Source: a virus. From it: a DNA stretch of 24,654 bases. Shown piece after piece: positions 2,436 through 11,998 of this stretch. A program made the translations under genes and the position numbers. Numbering within the stretch: the stretch's first letter is position 1; every line of letters starts with the position of its first letter. The stretch spans positions 1 to 24,654 of IMG/VR virus record IMGVR_UViG_3300021356_000157; one strand, given 5' to 3'. The notes under the pieces were generated by a model that had not been told where the DNA came from, searched no databases, and saw only the letters and a list, made by a program, of their open reading frames with translations.

Positions 2436-2993
2436 TTATGAGGTAGAGGCAGGGTTTGCCTCCTTACCCTCTTCTACCTCTTGCAAAATATGAAAACTCA
2501 AATTGATAGTGCGTACTACGCCAGTCGCGAGCAGGTCATCCACAGGCACGATTAAGTTGCGTGAAAAAAAATTTTTATTTTCAGCCTCTATAATCCTGTA
2601 TTTATCTTCCCTCAACCAGTCAACAATAAAGGGTATTAGTTGTTCAGGATTCCAGTAATAAAGTTGATTAGTTGGGTAAGCCCAGTAAAACATATAGTCA
2701 GTAAAGGTCTTGAATTGACAACCTGTCTGCATTGTGCCGTCATCCTGTACTATCTGTATTTCTAAAGCTACATTACCTGTATCTTTAGTTTGTGTGTCAG
2801 TTTTAACTTCTACATACTTCATACCTAGTTCATTATTAATTATGAATAGGTCAGCACCCTTTAATTGTTCCTCTCTTCGTGTCTTTTTTACTATAAACTT
2901 AGTGGAGCCATCATCAGTCTGTCGTTCATAAAATAACTTAACTAATCGTTCTCCTTTTTCTCCTATTGCTAGTTGCTCTTTAAAATCAAACAT
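2436..2993 (-). CDS. PD-(D/E)XK-superfamily nuclease-like protein
   Basis: A 185-residue protein with the layout of a small restriction-like nuclease. An N-terminal helix carries GEKGERLV (about 11-18), followed by KGADLFI with the candidate catalytic D48, then KYVEVKTD with E62 and K64 as the ExK pair. The spacing of about 14 residues between D and E fits the superfamily (compare Hjc-type resolvases and VRR-NUC proteins). It may cut branched DNA before packaging or degrade host DNA; the sequence does not decide. The ribosome site AAAGGAGGAT, 2-3 bases from ATG 2993, is close to ideal. It is the first gene of the leftward unit, next to the 1-kb non-coding gap. Confidence 0.72.
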   Translation of the reverse strand: MFDFKEQLAIGEKGERLVKLFYERQTDDGSTKFIVKKTRREEQLKGADLFIINNELGMKYVEVKTDTQTKDTGNVALEIQIVQDDGTMQTGCQFKTFTDYMFYWAYPTNQLYYWNPEQLIPFIVDWLREDKYRIIEAENKNFFSRNLIVPVDDLLATGVVRTINLSFHILQEVEEGKEANPASTS

Positions 2994-3023
2994 CTATCCT
3001 CCTTTAACTTGCTTAAAATTATA
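2994..3023 (-). promoter_or_regulatory. Putative -10 element and ribosome site for the leftward unit
   Basis: Reading leftwards, a perfect TATAAT (3023 to 3018) lies about 24 bases before the nuclease ATG, and the ribosome site AAAGGAGGAT occupies 3005-2996. No convincing -35 hexamer lies at the right distance (the bases there read TATGTA). The ribosome site is firm; the promoter is only a candidate. Confidence 0.4.
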
Positions 3024-3050
3024 ATAGTAGTATAGTTTTATACATAGGCA

Positions 3051-3085
3051 TTTGAAATCAGTAGCTCATAAGGAATGGTTTCAAA
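3051..3085. other. Hairpin 1: 9-bp stem, 17-base loop
   Basis: TTTGAAATC (3051-3059) pairs with GGTTTCAAA (3077-3085), with one T-G wobble, around a 17-base loop. It stands upstream of the leftward promoter candidate. The folding was judged by eye. Confidence 0.5.
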
Positions 3086-3105
3086 GAACATACTTAGAAG
3101 GATAA

Positions 3106-3144
3106 AGCCGATTAGCTACACGGTGGTAACTAGCGTTAAAGGCT
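3106..3144. other. Hairpin 2: interrupted stem
   Basis: AGCC (3106-3109) pairs with GGCT (3141-3144), and TTAGCTA (3112-3118) can pair with TAGC plus TAA (3131-3139) across a small bulge. The loop is CACGGTGGTAAC. The stem is interrupted and this is weaker than its neighbours. Confidence 0.35.
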
Positions 3145-3204
3145 ATTACTTCACATATTTAATTTTTAAGGAAAAGCAAACATAATGTTCACTAAACTTA
3201 AACA

Positions 3205-3257
3205 CTTGGTTGGGAGGGAGTGACACAGGGTTCGCTGTACGCACTACACACTCCAAG
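3205..3257. other. Hairpin 3: two alternative short stems
   Basis: GGAGTG (3217-3222) pairs with CACTCC (3249-3254). Alternatively CTTGG (3205-3209) pairs with CCAAG (3253-3257), sharing two of the same bases. A small ACAG/CTGT stem lies inside the loop. An A-run/T-run dyad follows at 3267-3284. This could be a structured RNA with a weak terminator, but the pairing is short. Confidence 0.35.
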
Positions 3258-3331
3258 CGTACTATAGAAAAAAGTTCTTTTTTTCTTTCTCTTTACTAGC
3301 AATAGTGTGCTAATATAGGACAATAGGAACG

Positions 3332-3397
3332 GTGGTGTAGATTATCAATCTATACCTTCTTGATTGTTCACAATGCCTGTAAACAAACCTACACCAC
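3332..3397. other. Hairpin 4: 9-bp stem with nested hairpin
   Basis: GTGGTGTAG (3332-3340) pairs perfectly with CTACACCAC (3389-3397). Inside, CAATC and GATTG form a nested 5-bp stem around a 10-base loop (about 3346-3365). The region has no ribosome site or ORF, so the arms are probably selected as DNA or RNA structure. Confidence 0.55.
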
Positions 3398-3675
3398 TTT
3401 CCTTCCTCACAAAATTACCAGCAATCTTTTCTCTACTTACGTAATGATATATAGGGGTAGCCACATTAAATCCCCCCTCTAACACACAGGCGTACTATAA
3501 CGCACAGTGCAAGTACGATAGGGTACTATCTACTAACTTATATGTAATACTTACACGACAATACTATATAGTTACTTAATTTGTCCTACCTTTCCTTAGA
3601 AACGATACCCTTTGTTAAACACCATACATAATTCGTACTAGCTAACCGAAAGCTAATATAAAATATAGTCATACA

Positions 3676-3741
3676 CAAAACACACTCATTACTTAAGTAG
3701 CCACAACCCAACCACCACCGCTACTTCTATAGTGTGTTTTG
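3676..3741. other. Hairpin 5: 11-bp and 7-bp stacked stems with a G-free loop
   Basis: CAAAACACACT (3676-3686) pairs perfectly with AGTGTGTTTTG (3731-3741). Further in, AAGTAGC (3695-3701) pairs with GCTACTT (3720-3726). The 18-base loop (3702-3719) is made only of A and C. An all-A/C loop stays single-stranded and suits protein binding, primer priming or RNA-RNA contact. The right arm is followed by a T-rich tract (3743-3758). Confidence 0.6.
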
Positions 3742-3860
3742 CTTTTCCTTATTTTATTATCATCTTTCTATTGTGGGTTATATATATAGTTAATTACCCC
3801 CAACAAGAACATTTGTACAAAGCACAAATAACCTTTTACTACAATAGTAAAGTTAAATTC

Positions 3861-3925
3861 TTTAAGAAGTACTACACGCACTCTCAATGTACGCCTAAGC
3901 ATCCAGTAAGGAAAGTACTTCTATA
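3861..3925. other. Hairpin 6: 9-bp stem, 40-base loop
   Basis: AGAAGTACT (3865-3873) pairs perfectly with AGTACTTCT (3914-3922). Flanking TTTA (3861-3864) can continue with TAAA (3923-3926) after a bulged base. The loop is about 40 bases. It lies just upstream of the TATA-rich promoter candidate for the gene at 4003. Confidence 0.5.
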
Positions 3926-3967
3926 AAGCGGTTTAACTTGACTTATCGTAGTATGTTGGTAATTAGC

Positions 3968-3992
3968 TATATATATCGATATGAAAGGATAA
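3968..3992 (+). promoter_or_regulatory. TATA-rich -10-like site followed by ATGAAAGGATAA mini-ORF
   Basis: TAGCTATATATAT ends a few bases before ATGAAAGGATAA (3981-3992), a complete three-codon ORF (Met-Lys-Gly-stop). If the TATATA at about 3968-3975 is a -10 element, transcription would start at or near A3981. No good -35 is seen; TTGACT at 3938 is too far. The same leader 8-mer stands before two other genes (4786 and 5616). The AAAGGA inside it also serves as a ribosome site, 13 bases from ATG 4003. Confidence 0.35.
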
Positions 3993-4002
3993 GTGATTAA
4001 TT

Positions 4003-4452
4003 ATGGCTACAAAAAAACCTATTCATAGGTTCTACACAAAAGAGGAAGAAAATATATGTCAAGTATATCCATCTTCTAAAAAATACTTACCTAAGGGTTA
4101 TGTCTTAGTTAAGCTAAGAGGTTCTTCCTCTTTTGAATTTTCCCCCGAAAGCGAGGGTAAGACACGCTATATGATAGCAGTGCAAGACACTCAGGGAAAA
4201 TTCAAGAACTTAGGGATACTTAAACAATACGAGGCAGTTATTCAATTGCAAGAATTGTTCAAAGCATATCCCAAAGTTCTTACTCGTAAGGCTTTCAAAC
4301 CTACTAAAGCAGGCACAATGTCATCTGCTTTTATGGAAGAGATAGGTACTAACGCGATATCCGATAGGTTCGAAGAAGTGCCTACTTTACAGGAATGTAA
4401 AGCCTTTATGAATGGTAGGTTCAAAGGTACAGTTCAAGACTATATGTCTTAG
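4003..4452 (+). CDS. Hypothetical 149-residue protein
   Basis: A 149-residue protein with no recognised domain. The N-terminal third is basic and aromatic (HRFYTKEEENICQVYPSSKKYLPKGY), then a beta-rich stretch (YVLVKLRGSSSFEF, RYMIAVQDT) leads to a helical second half. It stands alone, flanked on the left by the structured gap and on the right by a strong intrinsic terminator, so it is probably a monocistronic early gene. The start ATG 4003 follows the MKG mini-ORF by 10 bases. Downstream in-frame ATGs come only after most of the beta-rich region. The function is unknown; position suggests a takeover or regulatory protein. Confidence 0.85.
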   Translation: MATKKPIHRFYTKEEENICQVYPSSKKYLPKGYVLVKLRGSSSFEFSPESEGKTRYMIAVQDTQGKFKNLGILKQYEAVIQLQELFKAYPKVLTRKAFKPTKAGTMSSAFMEEIGTNAISDRFEEVPTLQECKAFMNGRFKGTVQDYMS

Positions 4453-6837: not shown

Positions 6838-7541
6838 GTGATAAATTCGAGATGCCTAGTGAAGATAAGTATAACGAATTTGCTGAACAAATGGTAGAGA
6901 AGATAGAGAACGCAGAAAGATTAGGACTAAAAGATTTTTCTAAACTTACTGCACTAACTCAATTGGAAATGCAAGGCATAGGAATGTTCTATCCTGCTGA
7001 AGTAGATGAAGATGGTAATACCAAACCTAGTAGAAGGAACGGCAAGTATCATATTGCATCTAGCGATACCATAGAAACTATGAAGTGGGTAGAGAAACAC
7101 CTATGGCAAAATCGTATGAAAGACTTTGCTACTGGGGTTATGCTATTCGCATCTAATATGATAGCAGAAATGTCTGAAGGCGAACATAATGAGGTGCTTA
7201 TGCAAAGCAAGCAACTATTCAAAGCTGAGTTTCCTAACGATAAGGAACCATCAGACTTTATGTTAGCTTCGTATGTCATACAACTAGTACTAGAAATGAT
7301 ACTAGAAAATGAGAAAGCATTTGGAAAGATGTACAAACAAGTAACTACTGTACACGAAGAACCAGAGCTAATAACCATAGGTGATATTAGAACTGTTAGT
7401 GCAATAGTACAAGGTGGTTATACAAGCGACACTGTTACTAAGGAAGAGGCTATAGAAAGCCTACAGAAAACAGTAACAGACAAGGATATAGAAAAGTTCT
7501 TGAAAGAAGTAACCGAGAACGAAGAAAGTGAGGAGGAATAA
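6834..7541 (+). CDS. Hypothetical protein in the MoxR-VWA operon, 235 residues
   Basis: A 235-residue acidic, mainly helical protein ending in a Glu-rich tail (VTENEESEEE). No catalytic motif, membrane segment or Cys cluster is seen. The middle region (SDTIETMKWVEKHLWQNRMK, then a long FMLASYVIQLVLEMILENEK helix) suggests a helical bundle. It is coupled by ATGA to the preceding gene and by TAATG to the next, and it lies two genes before the AAA+ ATPase, so it may be an adaptor or substrate of the MoxR-VWA pair. That is inference from order only. Confidence 0.85.
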   Translation: MSDKFEMPSEDKYNEFAEQMVEKIENAERLGLKDFSKLTALTQLEMQGIGMFYPAEVDEDGNTKPSRRNGKYHIASSDTIETMKWVEKHLWQNRMKDFATGVMLFASNMIAEMSEGEHNEVLMQSKQLFKAEFPNDKEPSDFMLASYVIQLVLEMILENEKAFGKMYKQVTTVHEEPELITIGDIRTVSAIVQGGYTSDTVTKEEAIESLQKTVTDKDIEKFLKEVTENEESEEE

Positions 7542-7997: not shown

Positions 7998-8684
7998 ATG
8001 AAAGAAGGACACATTTGGAAATTACTTGCAGAAGTAATTCCTTATACACCAAGAATATTGTTGTTCGGTATACCTGGTACAGGTAAAACCTTTCAAGCAA
8101 ATACTCTTGGACTAAAAGAAAATCAAGAAGTGTATAACATTACACTTACACACGATAGTACGGCAGCAGAACTTATGGGTCACTATGTAGCAACTGACAA
8201 TGGTGGCTTTGAGTGGCTTGATGGCGTAGGTGTTCGTGCTTGGAAAGAAGGTGCAAGACTAGTCATTAACGAGATAGACCACGCTGGTGTAGATGTTATG
8301 ACTTTCTTACACGCTTTGCTAGATGACCCTAAGTTTGCGAAGTTCACACTACCAAACAAGGACAAGGAAACTGTTAGACCTAAGGAAGGGTTCCAAGTTG
8401 TAGCAACTATGAACGGAGTTCCTGCTGACTTACCTGATGCACTTAGAGATAGGTTCCCAGTTAATCTAGCCATTAACGAAGTACACCCATCTGCGTTGGA
8501 AAGTCTGCCTAAGAAATTACAGTCAGTATATCAAGACTATAACGAAGGCAACTTCTCAGTTCGTAAGTGGTCTGCATTTGCAGAACTACTAGACAAAGGT
8601 TGTGAGTTATCTACTGCTGCTAGTGTAGTATTCACTGATAACTGTGCTGATATTATTGATGCACTAACAGATAGTGATGAATAA
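7998..8684 (+). CDS. MoxR-type AAA+ ATPase
   Basis: A 228-residue single AAA+ module. Walker A is GIPGTGKT at 24-31 and Walker B RLVINEID at 87-94. The sensor-1 Asn is in VVATMNG (about 135-140), and the arginine-finger region is DALRDRF (about 148-153). The HDSTAAELMGHY segment and the DLPDALRDRF block are typical of the MoxR/CobS/CbbQ group, which remodels partner proteins together with a VWA-domain protein. The next gene encodes exactly such a protein and overlaps this one by 8 bases. T4-like cyanophages carry a related cobS, but here chelatase function is unsupported because no cobalamin gene is present. Confidence 0.92.
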   Translation: MKEGHIWKLLAEVIPYTPRILLFGIPGTGKTFQANTLGLKENQEVYNITLTHDSTAAELMGHYVATDNGGFEWLDGVGVRAWKEGARLVINEIDHAGVDVMTFLHALLDDPKFAKFTLPNKDKETVRPKEGFQVVATMNGVPADLPDALRDRFPVNLAINEVHPSALESLPKKLQSVYQDYNEGNFSVRKWSAFAELLDKGCELSTAASVVFTDNCADIIDALTDSDE

Positions 8685-10389
8685 CTTATTTAGAAAAAGT
8701 GCTACAAATGTAGGTGGTTATGTTCCACCTACATTAGTAAATCTTTCTTTGCGTGGTGATAAGGTTAGAAAGTTTAGAGTTCGTAGAGGTACTAGCTTAG
8801 TACCTACTAGCAGAAACGAATTGATACTTCCTTATTACCAATGTGCTAATGAATACAACGAACAGGTATTGCTTAATACTGCAATAACAAAGATGAAGTT
8901 GTTTAGAGATATGAAGTTTCGTACTAAGGAACTAGACATATTACACATAGCACAGTTCTTATTTGCTAACAAGTATCATAGAGAAAGTGCTAAGAGAAGA
9001 GCTAATAAGATAGCAAAGTCATTGGGTTATAGAGACTACTGGGAGTATGACAAATACTTAACCGATGTAGAAGGAGTAAGAGAACTAACTAAAAACGAAA
9101 GAAAGTTTATGTCTCTTATGTACAACACATTAGGTATGATGAGGCAAGAACAATCAGACTTGATAGCCAAAGAGGTAATTAAGAAAATACTTGCTGATGA
9201 AAGCATATTAGAAGTATATAAGTATTATGTTAAGAAAACTGCTTTTGCAGGACAAGCTAGACTTATAGACTACGAAGATGCTAAGTCATACATTAAGTCA
9301 ATACTAGAAATGAGATACCCTGTAGGTAGTAAGGTACCTACTATGATAGTAGACCAAGATTGTTCTAGAGTATATAACATACTGAACTCATTGTTCTTTG
9401 GTATTTACGAAGCACAGTCTTACATTACTTGGACAAGTTTTCGTGGTTCTATGTATTACGATAGAGATGAAAACCATTGGCGTCATAGGAAAATAACTAC
9501 TTCTTCTATTAGAAGAAGAGTTAATAAACTAGTAAGAATGCTTTCTAATCCATTTGAAGCAGTAAGAAGTAGTATGCGATTAACAAAGATGCTTACTTCT
9601 GAAGGCACTATTAAACTAGATGGCGAGGAATACCTAGCACAACTAGAAGAAATGGATAGTATTGCTGAGGACTTTGATGGTATTACATTACCAGAAGGAA
9701 TTGATGATGAACTTGCTAAACAAATTATGGACGATAGTGAGCAACAATATGAAAGACACTTCATTAATTACTGGAGTGGCGACACTTCTGGTATGCACGG
9801 AGTAGCTAAGATATTCAAATTCACACCTACTAATACTATACACAAAGCAGTTAGAGAAATTGCTAAGCGTAATAGTGATAGAGGTGTTGTTCCTAAACAT
9901 ATGCATCGTATGACTACTGACAAGAAAGTCTTTGCAAATAAGACTACAGTAGCAGGTGGCTCAATGATGATAGATTGTAGTGGCTCTATGGCTTTTTATG
10001 AGGAAGACATACGAGAAATTATTGACTATCTACCTGCATCTAACATAGCTGGCTATGTAGGATACAACAGTAAGATAGATGGCTACGATGGTATGATAAA
10101 GATTATCGCTAAAGATGGTCGTATTGATACTCACGCTATACGAGACCTAGAAGAGTATGGTGCTAACTCAGTAGATTTAGATGGTCTAAAGTGGCTAGCA
10201 CAACAACCAGAACCTCGTATATGGGTAAGCGACCAACAAGTAGTAGGTGTAAATGAAAGTGGTACTGCAATAAATCTAAGCAAAGAAAAGAGAGATGAGA
10301 TTGCTAGGTTTATGAGAAGACATAACATAATACCTATTCGTGTAGTAGAACAAGTAAAGAAATTATCCAAACAATTAGGTACTAAGTAA
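8677..10389 (+). CDS. VWA-domain protein, probable partner of the MoxR ATPase
   Basis: A 570-residue protein. The C-terminal third is a von Willebrand A fold with a MIDAS metal site: MMIDCSGSM gives DxSxS at D433, S435, S437, and WVSDQQ at about 516-521 supplies the later Asp. The N-terminal 400 residues are helical and basic, with no other motif, and an acidic stretch (about 315-360) precedes the VWA part. CoxE, CobT and related VWA proteins act with MoxR ATPases to load metals or remodel complexes. I chose ATG 8677 over the adjacent GTG 8674. It ends the early operon. The size and N-terminal region do not match a family I can name. Confidence 0.85.
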   Translation: MNNLFRKSATNVGGYVPPTLVNLSLRGDKVRKFRVRRGTSLVPTSRNELILPYYQCANEYNEQVLLNTAITKMKLFRDMKFRTKELDILHIAQFLFANKYHRESAKRRANKIAKSLGYRDYWEYDKYLTDVEGVRELTKNERKFMSLMYNTLGMMRQEQSDLIAKEVIKKILADESILEVYKYYVKKTAFAGQARLIDYEDAKSYIKSILEMRYPVGSKVPTMIVDQDCSRVYNILNSLFFGIYEAQSYITWTSFRGSMYYDRDENHWRHRKITTSSIRRRVNKLVRMLSNPFEAVRSSMRLTKMLTSEGTIKLDGEEYLAQLEEMDSIAEDFDGITLPEGIDDELAKQIMDDSEQQYERHFINYWSGDTSGMHGVAKIFKFTPTNTIHKAVREIAKRNSDRGVVPKHMHRMTTDKKVFANKTTVAGGSMMIDCSGSMAFYEEDIREIIDYLPASNIAGYVGYNSKIDGYDGMIKIIAKDGRIDTHAIRDLEEYGANSVDLDGLKWLAQQPEPRIWVSDQQVVGVNESGTAINLSKEKRDEIARFMRRHNIIPIRVVEQVKKLSKQLGTK

Positions 10390-10504: not shown

Positions 10505-10509
10505 ATTTA

Positions 10510-10560
10510 TTATGCATATGCATAAGCATTTTATTTTTTTTCTCTTATGCATATGCATAA
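10510..10560. promoter_or_regulatory. Two identical 16-bp palindromes, operator-like
   Basis: TTATGCATATGCATAA occurs twice (10510-10525 and 10545-10560), each a perfect palindrome. The centres are 35 bases apart, so they lie on nearly the same helix face at about 3.3 turns. A CATAAT that could act as a -10 overlaps the end of the second copy (10556-10561), though no -35 is evident. The next gene encodes a small HTH protein, which could bind here and regulate its own unit. Confidence 0.65.
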
Positions 10561-10580
10561 TCAATATTGTGTGCTAGCAT

Positions 10581-10835: not shown

Positions 10836-11865
10836 AGAATTAGCAAAACTTTTAGCTGAAGCAGAAAGCGAACAGATAAAAGACCTTAAGCGTACTAATC
10901 AACGCTTGCTAAAGCAGATTGATAAGTTAAAAGATAAGAAAGCTGACTTAGTTGAAGCAGTATATACAGGTGCAAGAGATGGTATCTCAATGCTTGACAT
11001 ACCGAAAGTTAAAGCACCACCTAAAACAAAGGGAAAAGGAGAAGAAATATGTGTTCCCTTACTTAGTGATATACAGCTTGCAAAAAAAACACCTACTTAC
11101 AACAGTGAAATAGCTGAAGAAAGAGTTGTTAGATATGCAGAAAAGATAATTAAATTAGCACGCATACAGAGAGCAAGCCATACTATTAAGAAGTGTGCAG
11201 TTCTTTGTCTTGGCGATATCGTGGAGGGTGAACTCATATTCCCAGGACAAGCCCACGAAATTGACAGTTCCTTATATAAGCAAGTTACTGTTGATGGTCC
11301 ACGAATACTTTATAAATTCTTTAGTACATTACTAACAGACTTTGAAGAAGTAGAAGTCTATTGGGTAATAGGTAATCACGGTGCTTTAGGGGGTAGGTCA
11401 AGAAGAGACTACAACCCTGAAAGTAATGCTGACCGTATGTTAGGAAAAATATTAGAGACTATGTTTGCTAATGAAAAGCGAATTAAGTTTATAGTACCTG
11501 ACAAGACTTGGTACCTAGTAGCAGACTTAGGCAAGAAAGCAAAGTTTCTTTGCTTTCACGGAGATAACATTAGAGGCAGTATGGGATTACCTTTCTATGG
11601 ATACAATAAAAAAATCTTAGGTTGGAAATCTCTAGCAGCTAATAACTTAATGGAAGACTTTACTCACGCAGTATGTGGTCACTACCACACACCAACAAAC
11701 TTGTACATAAATGATACAAGAGTGTGGGTTAATGGTAGCACTGAGAGCCACAATGGTTATGCACTAGAACAGTTAGCTAGTATGGGTAGACCATCACAGC
11801 ACTGTCTATTTGTAAAACCTAACAAGGGGGTTACTGCTGAGTATTTAGTAAACCTAGAGGAGTAA
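10828..11865 (+). CDS. Calcineurin-like metallophosphoesterase
   Basis: A 345-residue protein. A basic coiled coil (about 10-45) and a Pro/Lys linker precede the metallophosphoesterase domain from about residue 75. The metal-binding motifs are in order: SDIQ (D81, Q83), GDIVEG (D130), GNHG (N183, H184), HGD (H244, D246) and GHYH (H285, H287). The first motif has Gln where most families have His (DxH). I recall the same change in other phage phosphoesterases. It may be a nuclease of the Mre11/SbcD kind or a phosphatase. Its position beside a ssDNA-binding-like gene favours DNA processing. Confidence 0.88.
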   Translation: MNKELAKLLAEAESEQIKDLKRTNQRLLKQIDKLKDKKADLVEAVYTGARDGISMLDIPKVKAPPKTKGKGEEICVPLLSDIQLAKKTPTYNSEIAEERVVRYAEKIIKLARIQRASHTIKKCAVLCLGDIVEGELIFPGQAHEIDSSLYKQVTVDGPRILYKFFSTLLTDFEEVEVYWVIGNHGALGGRSRRDYNPESNADRMLGKILETMFANEKRIKFIVPDKTWYLVADLGKKAKFLCFHGDNIRGSMGLPFYGYNKKILGWKSLAANNLMEDFTHAVCGHYHTPTNLYINDTRVWVNGSTESHNGYALEQLASMGRPSQHCLFVKPNKGVTAEYLVNLEE

Positions 11866-11866
11866 T

Positions 11867-11998
11867 ATGTCACACATATGTATGAGTTGTGGTAGTCCTT
11901 TATATGCACACAAGGGTTTTCTTAAATGTGTTAACCCTATGTGCAGGAAATATAAAGAGAAAATGTTCACATTAAATACTAACGAAGCTAGTATATAA
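11867..11998 (+). CDS. 43-residue zinc-ribbon miniprotein
   Basis: A 43-residue protein with C5, C8 (CMSC) and C21, C26 (CVNPMC) in ribbon order. A basic stretch follows (RKYKEK). It starts one base after the phosphoesterase stop, with GAGGAG just before. The CxxC...CxxxxC spacing is the same as in the 49-residue protein at 2269-2418, so the two may be distant relatives. The role is unknown. Confidence 0.75.
   Translation: MSHICMSCGSPLYAHKGFLKCVNPMCRKYKEKMFTLNTNEASI

Follow-up and report, generated by a model that had tools for sequence, protein, structure and literature searches.

A non-coding region of 1,009 bp that separates divergent genes at positions 2994-4002 of the window (the whole stretch of virus DNA that we analyzed, 24,654 nucleotides of IMG/VR record IMGVR_UViG_3300021356_000157) probably encodes a large, structured phage RNA on the + strand, with a pseudoknotted core and, as a clade-specific docking arm, a hairpin whose loop consists of A and C only. 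This RNA is probably ~950 nt long. In the model that we favor, the region would function through this RNA itself, neither as an mRNA nor as a site on DNA. Near the 5' end of the RNA, two core hairpins would pair with each other through their loops, as a pseudoknot or a kissing interaction; a conserved purine-rich motif and, after it, clade-specific side arms would come next. The A/C hairpin would be one of these side arms, its long stem keeping the invariant loop single-stranded so that a protein, of the phage or of its host, could dock on it, or else a G/U-rich stretch of RNA from its own copy or from a second one.

The core domain lies at about 3036-3235 on the + strand, where the window matches our model R1 with 145.7 bits. 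This structured core occurs in at least 119 virus contigs, and it is present exactly once in all of 20 records, which measure 30-53 kb. For each of the six frames, at least 88 of 91 cores contain stops, which marks the core as non-coding. IMG/VR contains relatives of both flanking genes, and the gap between them measures 981-1153 bp in 15 distinct relatives in which both genes exceed 60% protein identity. Six more distant relatives (L018-L021, L043 and L044) keep the divergent flanking genes around a gap of 650-987 bp, and the core model had no match in these six gaps. We did not find the core or the region in INPHARED or, using exact patterns, in GTDB species genomes. Judging by titles and the openings of abstracts, which do not prove absence from print, we also found no published description of this RNA element.

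Compensatory changes define the structure of the core. In hairpin P1, TTTGAAATCA (3051-3060) faces TGGTTTCAAA (3076-3085) on the + strand, and in the 85 of 110 sequences that fit the extraction pattern (35 distinct arm pairs) a sequence's own arms form 8.20 of 10 possible Watson-Crick pairs, compared to 5.90 for swapped arms and 6.51 for the highest of 200 swaps. The P1 loop, GTAGCT (3061-3066), forms a loop-loop pseudoknot with AGCTAC (3114-3119) in the P2 loop; across 23 sequences, GTAGCT/AGCTAC alternates with CCTGCT/AGCAGG. In an alignment of 29 sequences all five pairs of this pseudoknot are formed (100%), with changes on both sides in three of the five, and the helix takes the forms GTAGC/GCTAC, CCTGC/GCAGG, CTAGC/GCTAG, CCAGC/GCTGG and CTGGC/GCCAG among the phages. 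The P2/P3 domain (3105-3151) is made up of AAG (3105-3107) with CTT (3149-3151), CCG (3108-3110) with CGG (3121-3123) and TAGC (3131-3134) with GCTA (3142-3145). This last helix is paired in 80/80 cells (20 distinct sequences), counted, as are helix 3332-3397 and the 3' arm described below, over the sequences that fit the patterns used.

Taken as a whole, the named core structure comprises 18 pairs, the loop-loop pseudoknot included and P-e and the outer part of P1 excluded, and 99.2% of 522 cells are paired in 29 sequences. The corresponding values were 84.6% for shuffled controls and 20-49% when partners were slid. Cells changed on both sides number 72, compared to 25.1 in shuffles, and nine pairs show double changes. 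Further pair types, at 16 compared to 15.4 in shuffles, are not in excess, which counts against the structured-RNA reading. These counts come from alignment A1, which holds 29 of 31 representatives and excludes L059 (which contains N) and L109, where, within positions 11705-11984, ~100 nt are inserted into the core after the P3 block and before the purine motif. A G-test on column pairs that assumed no structure (110 unique sequences, effective number ~29) also placed 3134:3142, and 3061-3063 with 3117-3119, among its top pairs, all 100% canonical; some other top pairs are non-canonical and reflect clade history, as expected of so simple a statistic.

Wobble pairs point to the strand of the core. 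When P1 was scored on Watson-Crick pairs only, which is strand-neutral, its wobbles were 42 G-T to 2 A-C, and the ratios in three other helices were 4:0, 16:0 and 15:3. The 16:0 reflects a single wobble that is fixed in all 16 versions, and the helix with 15:3 is short and has many unpaired cells. Because G-T exceeds A-C, we assign the core RNA to the + strand on this sequence criterion. The entire + strand from 3036 to 3990 folds with a z of -4.9, and 0/20 shuffles were equally stable; folding of the - strand is good as well (z -5.1). Immediately upstream of the core, the + strand hexamer TATAGT (3031-3036) is a weak candidate for a -10 element. It is present in 66 of 110 unique sequences, with other hexamers from a list chosen post hoc in 26 more and none in 18, and the + strand of the region had no match to a sigma-70-like promoter. 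Upstream of the core, the majority clade has a further conserved hairpin, GGGGTTTC..GCGTAGGCGAAAGGAGGAAACTCCTAC..AAAACCCC (L063, ~7355-7425), whose L061 version has the changed arms GGGTGAA/TTCACCC; the RNA may therefore begin further upstream in that clade. We infer that the core and the A/C arm share one transcript and where that transcript ends.

The A/C hairpin lies at 3676-3741 on the + strand. Its 11-bp outer stem pairs CAAAACACACT (3676-3686) perfectly with AGTGTGTTTTG (3731-3741), and its 7-bp inner stem pairs AAGTAGC (3695-3701) perfectly with GCTACTT (3720-3726), presenting the 18-base loop CACAACCCAACCACCACC (3702-3719). A preliminary description of the DNA had singled out these stacked stems and their G/T-free loop, and they exceed chance: the + strand fold has a z of -6.6, with 0/200 shuffles equally stable, and a comparable hairpin (perfect 11-bp and 7-bp stems inside 60 nt) arises in ~1% of simulated windows (n=300, first-order Markov). 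The real window contains two, at 3676-3741 and 10509-10561. A run of at least 18 bases of A/C or G/T only is less rare, occurring in 13.7% of simulated windows. Pairs further out (3658-3665/3751-3758 and 3648-3652/3764-3768) prolong the hairpin into an arm of ~120 nt (3648-3768, + strand; fold z -6.2) with the loop at its tip. We rejected the hairpin as an intrinsic terminator (GC-rich stem, short loop, T run); the sole terminator-like site in 2900-4100 is at 3334-3356.

RNAalifold, run on the whole region, did not recover the hairpin because its arms align badly, and we therefore compared own with swapped arms. Among the seven of 11 hairpin versions picked by lineage for this comparison, the longest contiguous Watson-Crick match between a phage's own arms was 11, 11, 12, 9, 16, 13 and 12 pairs, compared to a mean of 7.3 (range 5-11) across lineages. 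In all seven, the own arms paired with each other at least as well as with any other lineage's arms, one cross-lineage value of 11 equaling the window's own 11. A gapped, strand-neutral score gave 22.67 for own arms and 16.59 across dissimilar lineages (n = 82), with a cross-lineage maximum of 22.3, close to the own mean. The compensatory stem changes for which the preliminary description had proposed to check sister phages are thus borne out.

While the stems vary far more than the loop, the loop itself hardly changes. A 22-base loop core is present in 15 viral contigs, and the 18 loop bases have the same letters in 8 of 11 distinct hairpin versions. The absence of G and T, also anticipated for sister phages, is kept in 9 of the 11 and so is not absolute. 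The L002-type loop has a single A-to-C change, L031 gains a G through a single A-to-G change, and in L010/L011 the loop is rewritten to CCCAAGCCACCCACCCCC, with a T at its 5' edge. By comparison of these versions, the loop letters themselves are conserved, beyond a mere lack of structure. An invariant loop on compensated stems is what would be expected of a sequence-specific site, so the earlier idea of a single-stranded landing site keeps its pattern; nothing suggests the primase that had been named as one possible ligand, and that first reading missed the larger context, in which the hairpin is one clade-specific arm of a structured RNA region of ~1 kb.

We consider the A/C loop to be probably a clade-specific docking site, with a protein, the purine-rich core motif (striking in L010 only) or another RNA as candidate partners. 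An internal G/U-rich partner, the core sequence GGTTGGG (3207-3213), which could face CCCAACC in the loop, is at most a tentative idea, since this pairing is inconsistent across lineages. The contiguous pairs number 8 in the window and 13 in L010 (at most 10 with other lineages' motifs), and they drop to 5-6 in L009, L013 and L029-31 because the motif or the loop changed without compensation. For a partner in trans, the best complementary sites within the window carry 3 mismatches in 14.

The wobbles of the A/C arm number 8 G-T to 14 A-C, and a C-A mismatch recurs in the inner stem (5 of 11 versions) that would be a G-U on the opposite strand. Such counts do not favor a + strand RNA, and they would suit an arm that acts as DNA, as a cruciform or single-strand hairpin serving as a replication origin, nicking site or packaging signal. 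A protein would then read the loop, which is indeed invariant while the stems change, and the variable stems would merely expose it; the position of the region between divergent modules, adjoining the terminase gene, fits as well. We regard this reading as unlikely, however, as the surrounding core is RNA by wobble bias and pseudoknot covariation. In addition, most core-bearing phages lack the arm, which therefore is not a general origin, and no replication initiator was found among the window proteins scanned (10 proteins per scan).

A G-quadruplex predicted on the - strand is a serious rival, if one of equally low probability, because all 11 hairpin versions, the rewritten L010 loop included, retain four runs of at least two G. 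The functional strand of the arm would then be the - strand, on which the loop, GGTGGTGGTTGGGTTGTG, might form a stem-capped, two-tier quadruplex, as RNA or as template DNA, that stalls a polymerase or binds a protein. ViennaRNA used the quadruplex in 11/11 versions (-25.6 to -46.2 kcal/mol with it, -16.4 to -33.7 without), and the inner-stem C-A mismatches turn into G-U pairs on this strand. The statement in the preliminary description that the loop cannot fold consequently holds for the + strand but not for this complement, at least as predicted for RNA. However, the evidence for the quadruplex is itself a prediction, and in 8 of 11 versions the spacers vary as little as the G runs do, which is more conservation than a quadruplex needs. 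The core wobbles, too, favor the + strand.

Returning to the + strand RNA, the core is present in far more phages than the A/C hairpin, and most of the family lacks the A/C arm; L034, L165, L167 and L170 have a different module at its position. Some blocks elsewhere in the gap are better conserved than this hairpin. The purine-rich motif GGGAGGGAGTGACACAGGGTT (3212-3232, + strand) matches at least 119 stretches of viral contigs, and a second conserved block, 60-odd bases upstream of it, at least 120, mostly in the same contigs among the matches listed. Further downstream on the + strand, the helix GTGGTGTAG/CTACACCAC (3332-3340/3389-3397) has 140 Watson-Crick, 4 G-T and 0 A-C pairs in 144 cells from 16 versions. 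It shares its 5' strand with an alternative, terminator-like hairpin (3334-3356, + strand), which gives GGTGTAG two possible partners, CTATACC (3350-3356) and, when it pairs inside GTGGTGTAG, CTACACCAC; both options are retained in 16/16 versions, a switch-like arrangement. Two spaced + strand motifs, TTACCAGCAA (3415-3424) and TTAAATCCCCCC (3466-3477), lie 50-51 nt apart in cross-clade examples. Among 92 distinct loci having 600 nt downstream, the former is present in 58, the latter in 39 and both, in order, in 35. At the 3' end, an extended arm (3777-3980, + strand; z -5.2) contains the nested helices 3780-3798/3958-3976, 3846-3857/3932-3943 and 3865-3873/3914-3922, with the compensatory changes GTTAAA/TTTAAC, GCTAAA/TTTAGC and GTCAAA/TTTGAC.

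The left flanking gene (2436-2993, - strand) encodes 185 aa, and the gene for the terminase large subunit, TerL (1-1548, - strand), is cut off by the left window edge; its product is 59% identical to the TerL of L063, which matches annotated terminases in INPHARED. TerL lies to the left of the core, on the opposite strand, in 91/91 matches. Among the 43 loci having 4.5 kb on the left, it adjoins the core in 40, and an 84-aa basic protein is encoded in 38. The right flanking gene (4003-4452, + strand; 149 aa) is present in the A/C-loop clade. It is very doubtful that the RNA is a long cis-acting leader controlling this right-hand gene, riboswitch-like or at the level of translation: RNA and gene run in one direction and the structure stops right before the gene's AAAGGA ribosome-binding-like site, but the members do not share one downstream gene (13 of 117 core contexts match the 149-aa gene, and the first right-hand ORFs form several unrelated clusters) and the purine motif commonly precedes the first right-hand ORF by 420-940 nt. 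An actinobacterial host, considered on the basis of WhiB, was rejected, with WhiB in 0/20 records; the best cultured-phage matches are at 23-25% for TerL and 27-30% for the capsid, and many of these phages are actinobacterial. As to habitat, contigs with numbers of this type are in many cases marine.

Because the RNA sits beside TerL in 40 of the 43 loci with enough flank, it could be tied to packaging. A speculative and rather improbable extension of our model is a new class of giant RNA whose conserved loop-loop pairing would build a multimeric particle, of RNA alone or of RNA and protein, tied to packaging of the genome. Clade-specific arms, the A/C loop among them, would be its interchangeable tips, on which cargo or partner proteins dock. 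The pRNA of phi29 is a phage RNA of about 120-174 nt with interlocking loops that is linked to the packaging motor. The RNA described here would resemble it in its interlocking loops, and its link to packaging would be the adjacency of the TerL gene; it differs in its probable length of ~950 nt.

The region is long, conserved, covarying and non-coding, as is characteristic of large ornate phage ncRNAs, and by analogy it is best read as a new family of such RNAs, of the same general kind as GOLLD and ROOL. PMC12286853 describes both as phage RNAs whose function is unknown; they are often encoded near tRNA islands and assemble into RNA cages by way of kissing loops and A-minor contacts. GOLLD (giant, ornate), from phages and prophages, often exceeds 800 nt and has one well conserved and one variable domain; ROOL (rumen-originating, ornate, large), at 659 nt in the solved case, has multiple pseudoknots and kissing loops. 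The present RNA would be like GOLLD in being large, structured and phage-encoded, with a conserved and a variable domain and loop-loop pairing, and like ROOL as a large phage-encoded RNA with a pseudoknot formed by paired loops. In contrast to the placement of GOLLD given there, it lies beside TerL, with no tRNA in the window or in 27 loci of 7-15 kb, and its conserved domain is 5' rather than 3'. The kissing loops of the GOLLD cage are intermolecular; the loop-loop pair of the present RNA, identified by covariation, may form within or between molecules. The present RNA also recalls Ocean-V, Ocean-VI, wcaG and manA, which PMC2864571 presents as structured metagenome motifs known mainly from environmental sequence. 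Rfam 15 gave no gathering-level match for the window or 14 family loci and nothing up to E 5 in L063 7000-8400; the present RNA thus matches neither the GOLLD nor the ROOL covariance model, nor the phage pRNA family, nor those metagenome motifs that are in Rfam, a comparison that excludes Ocean-VI, which has no Rfam accession in the table of PMC2864571.

Large phage RNAs like GOLLD and ROOL are few and structurally spectacular, and they have no known function. A further, unrelated family that occurs once per record among uncultured phages, beside a packaging gene, would add an independent example whose position is itself a strong clue, and the A/C arm would offer a concrete handle, as its invariant 18-nt loop could serve as bait for finding a partner. 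Elsewhere in the window, positions 7998-10389 hold an AAA ATPase gene, identified by Pfam, followed by a 571-aa gene (8674-10389) that had no Pfam hit and that, from the look of its sequence, may be VWA-like, possibly making a MoxR/VWA-like pair with the ATPase. The second stacked hairpin (10509-10561), again with perfect stems of 11 bp and 7 bp, lies in the gap downstream of this gene.
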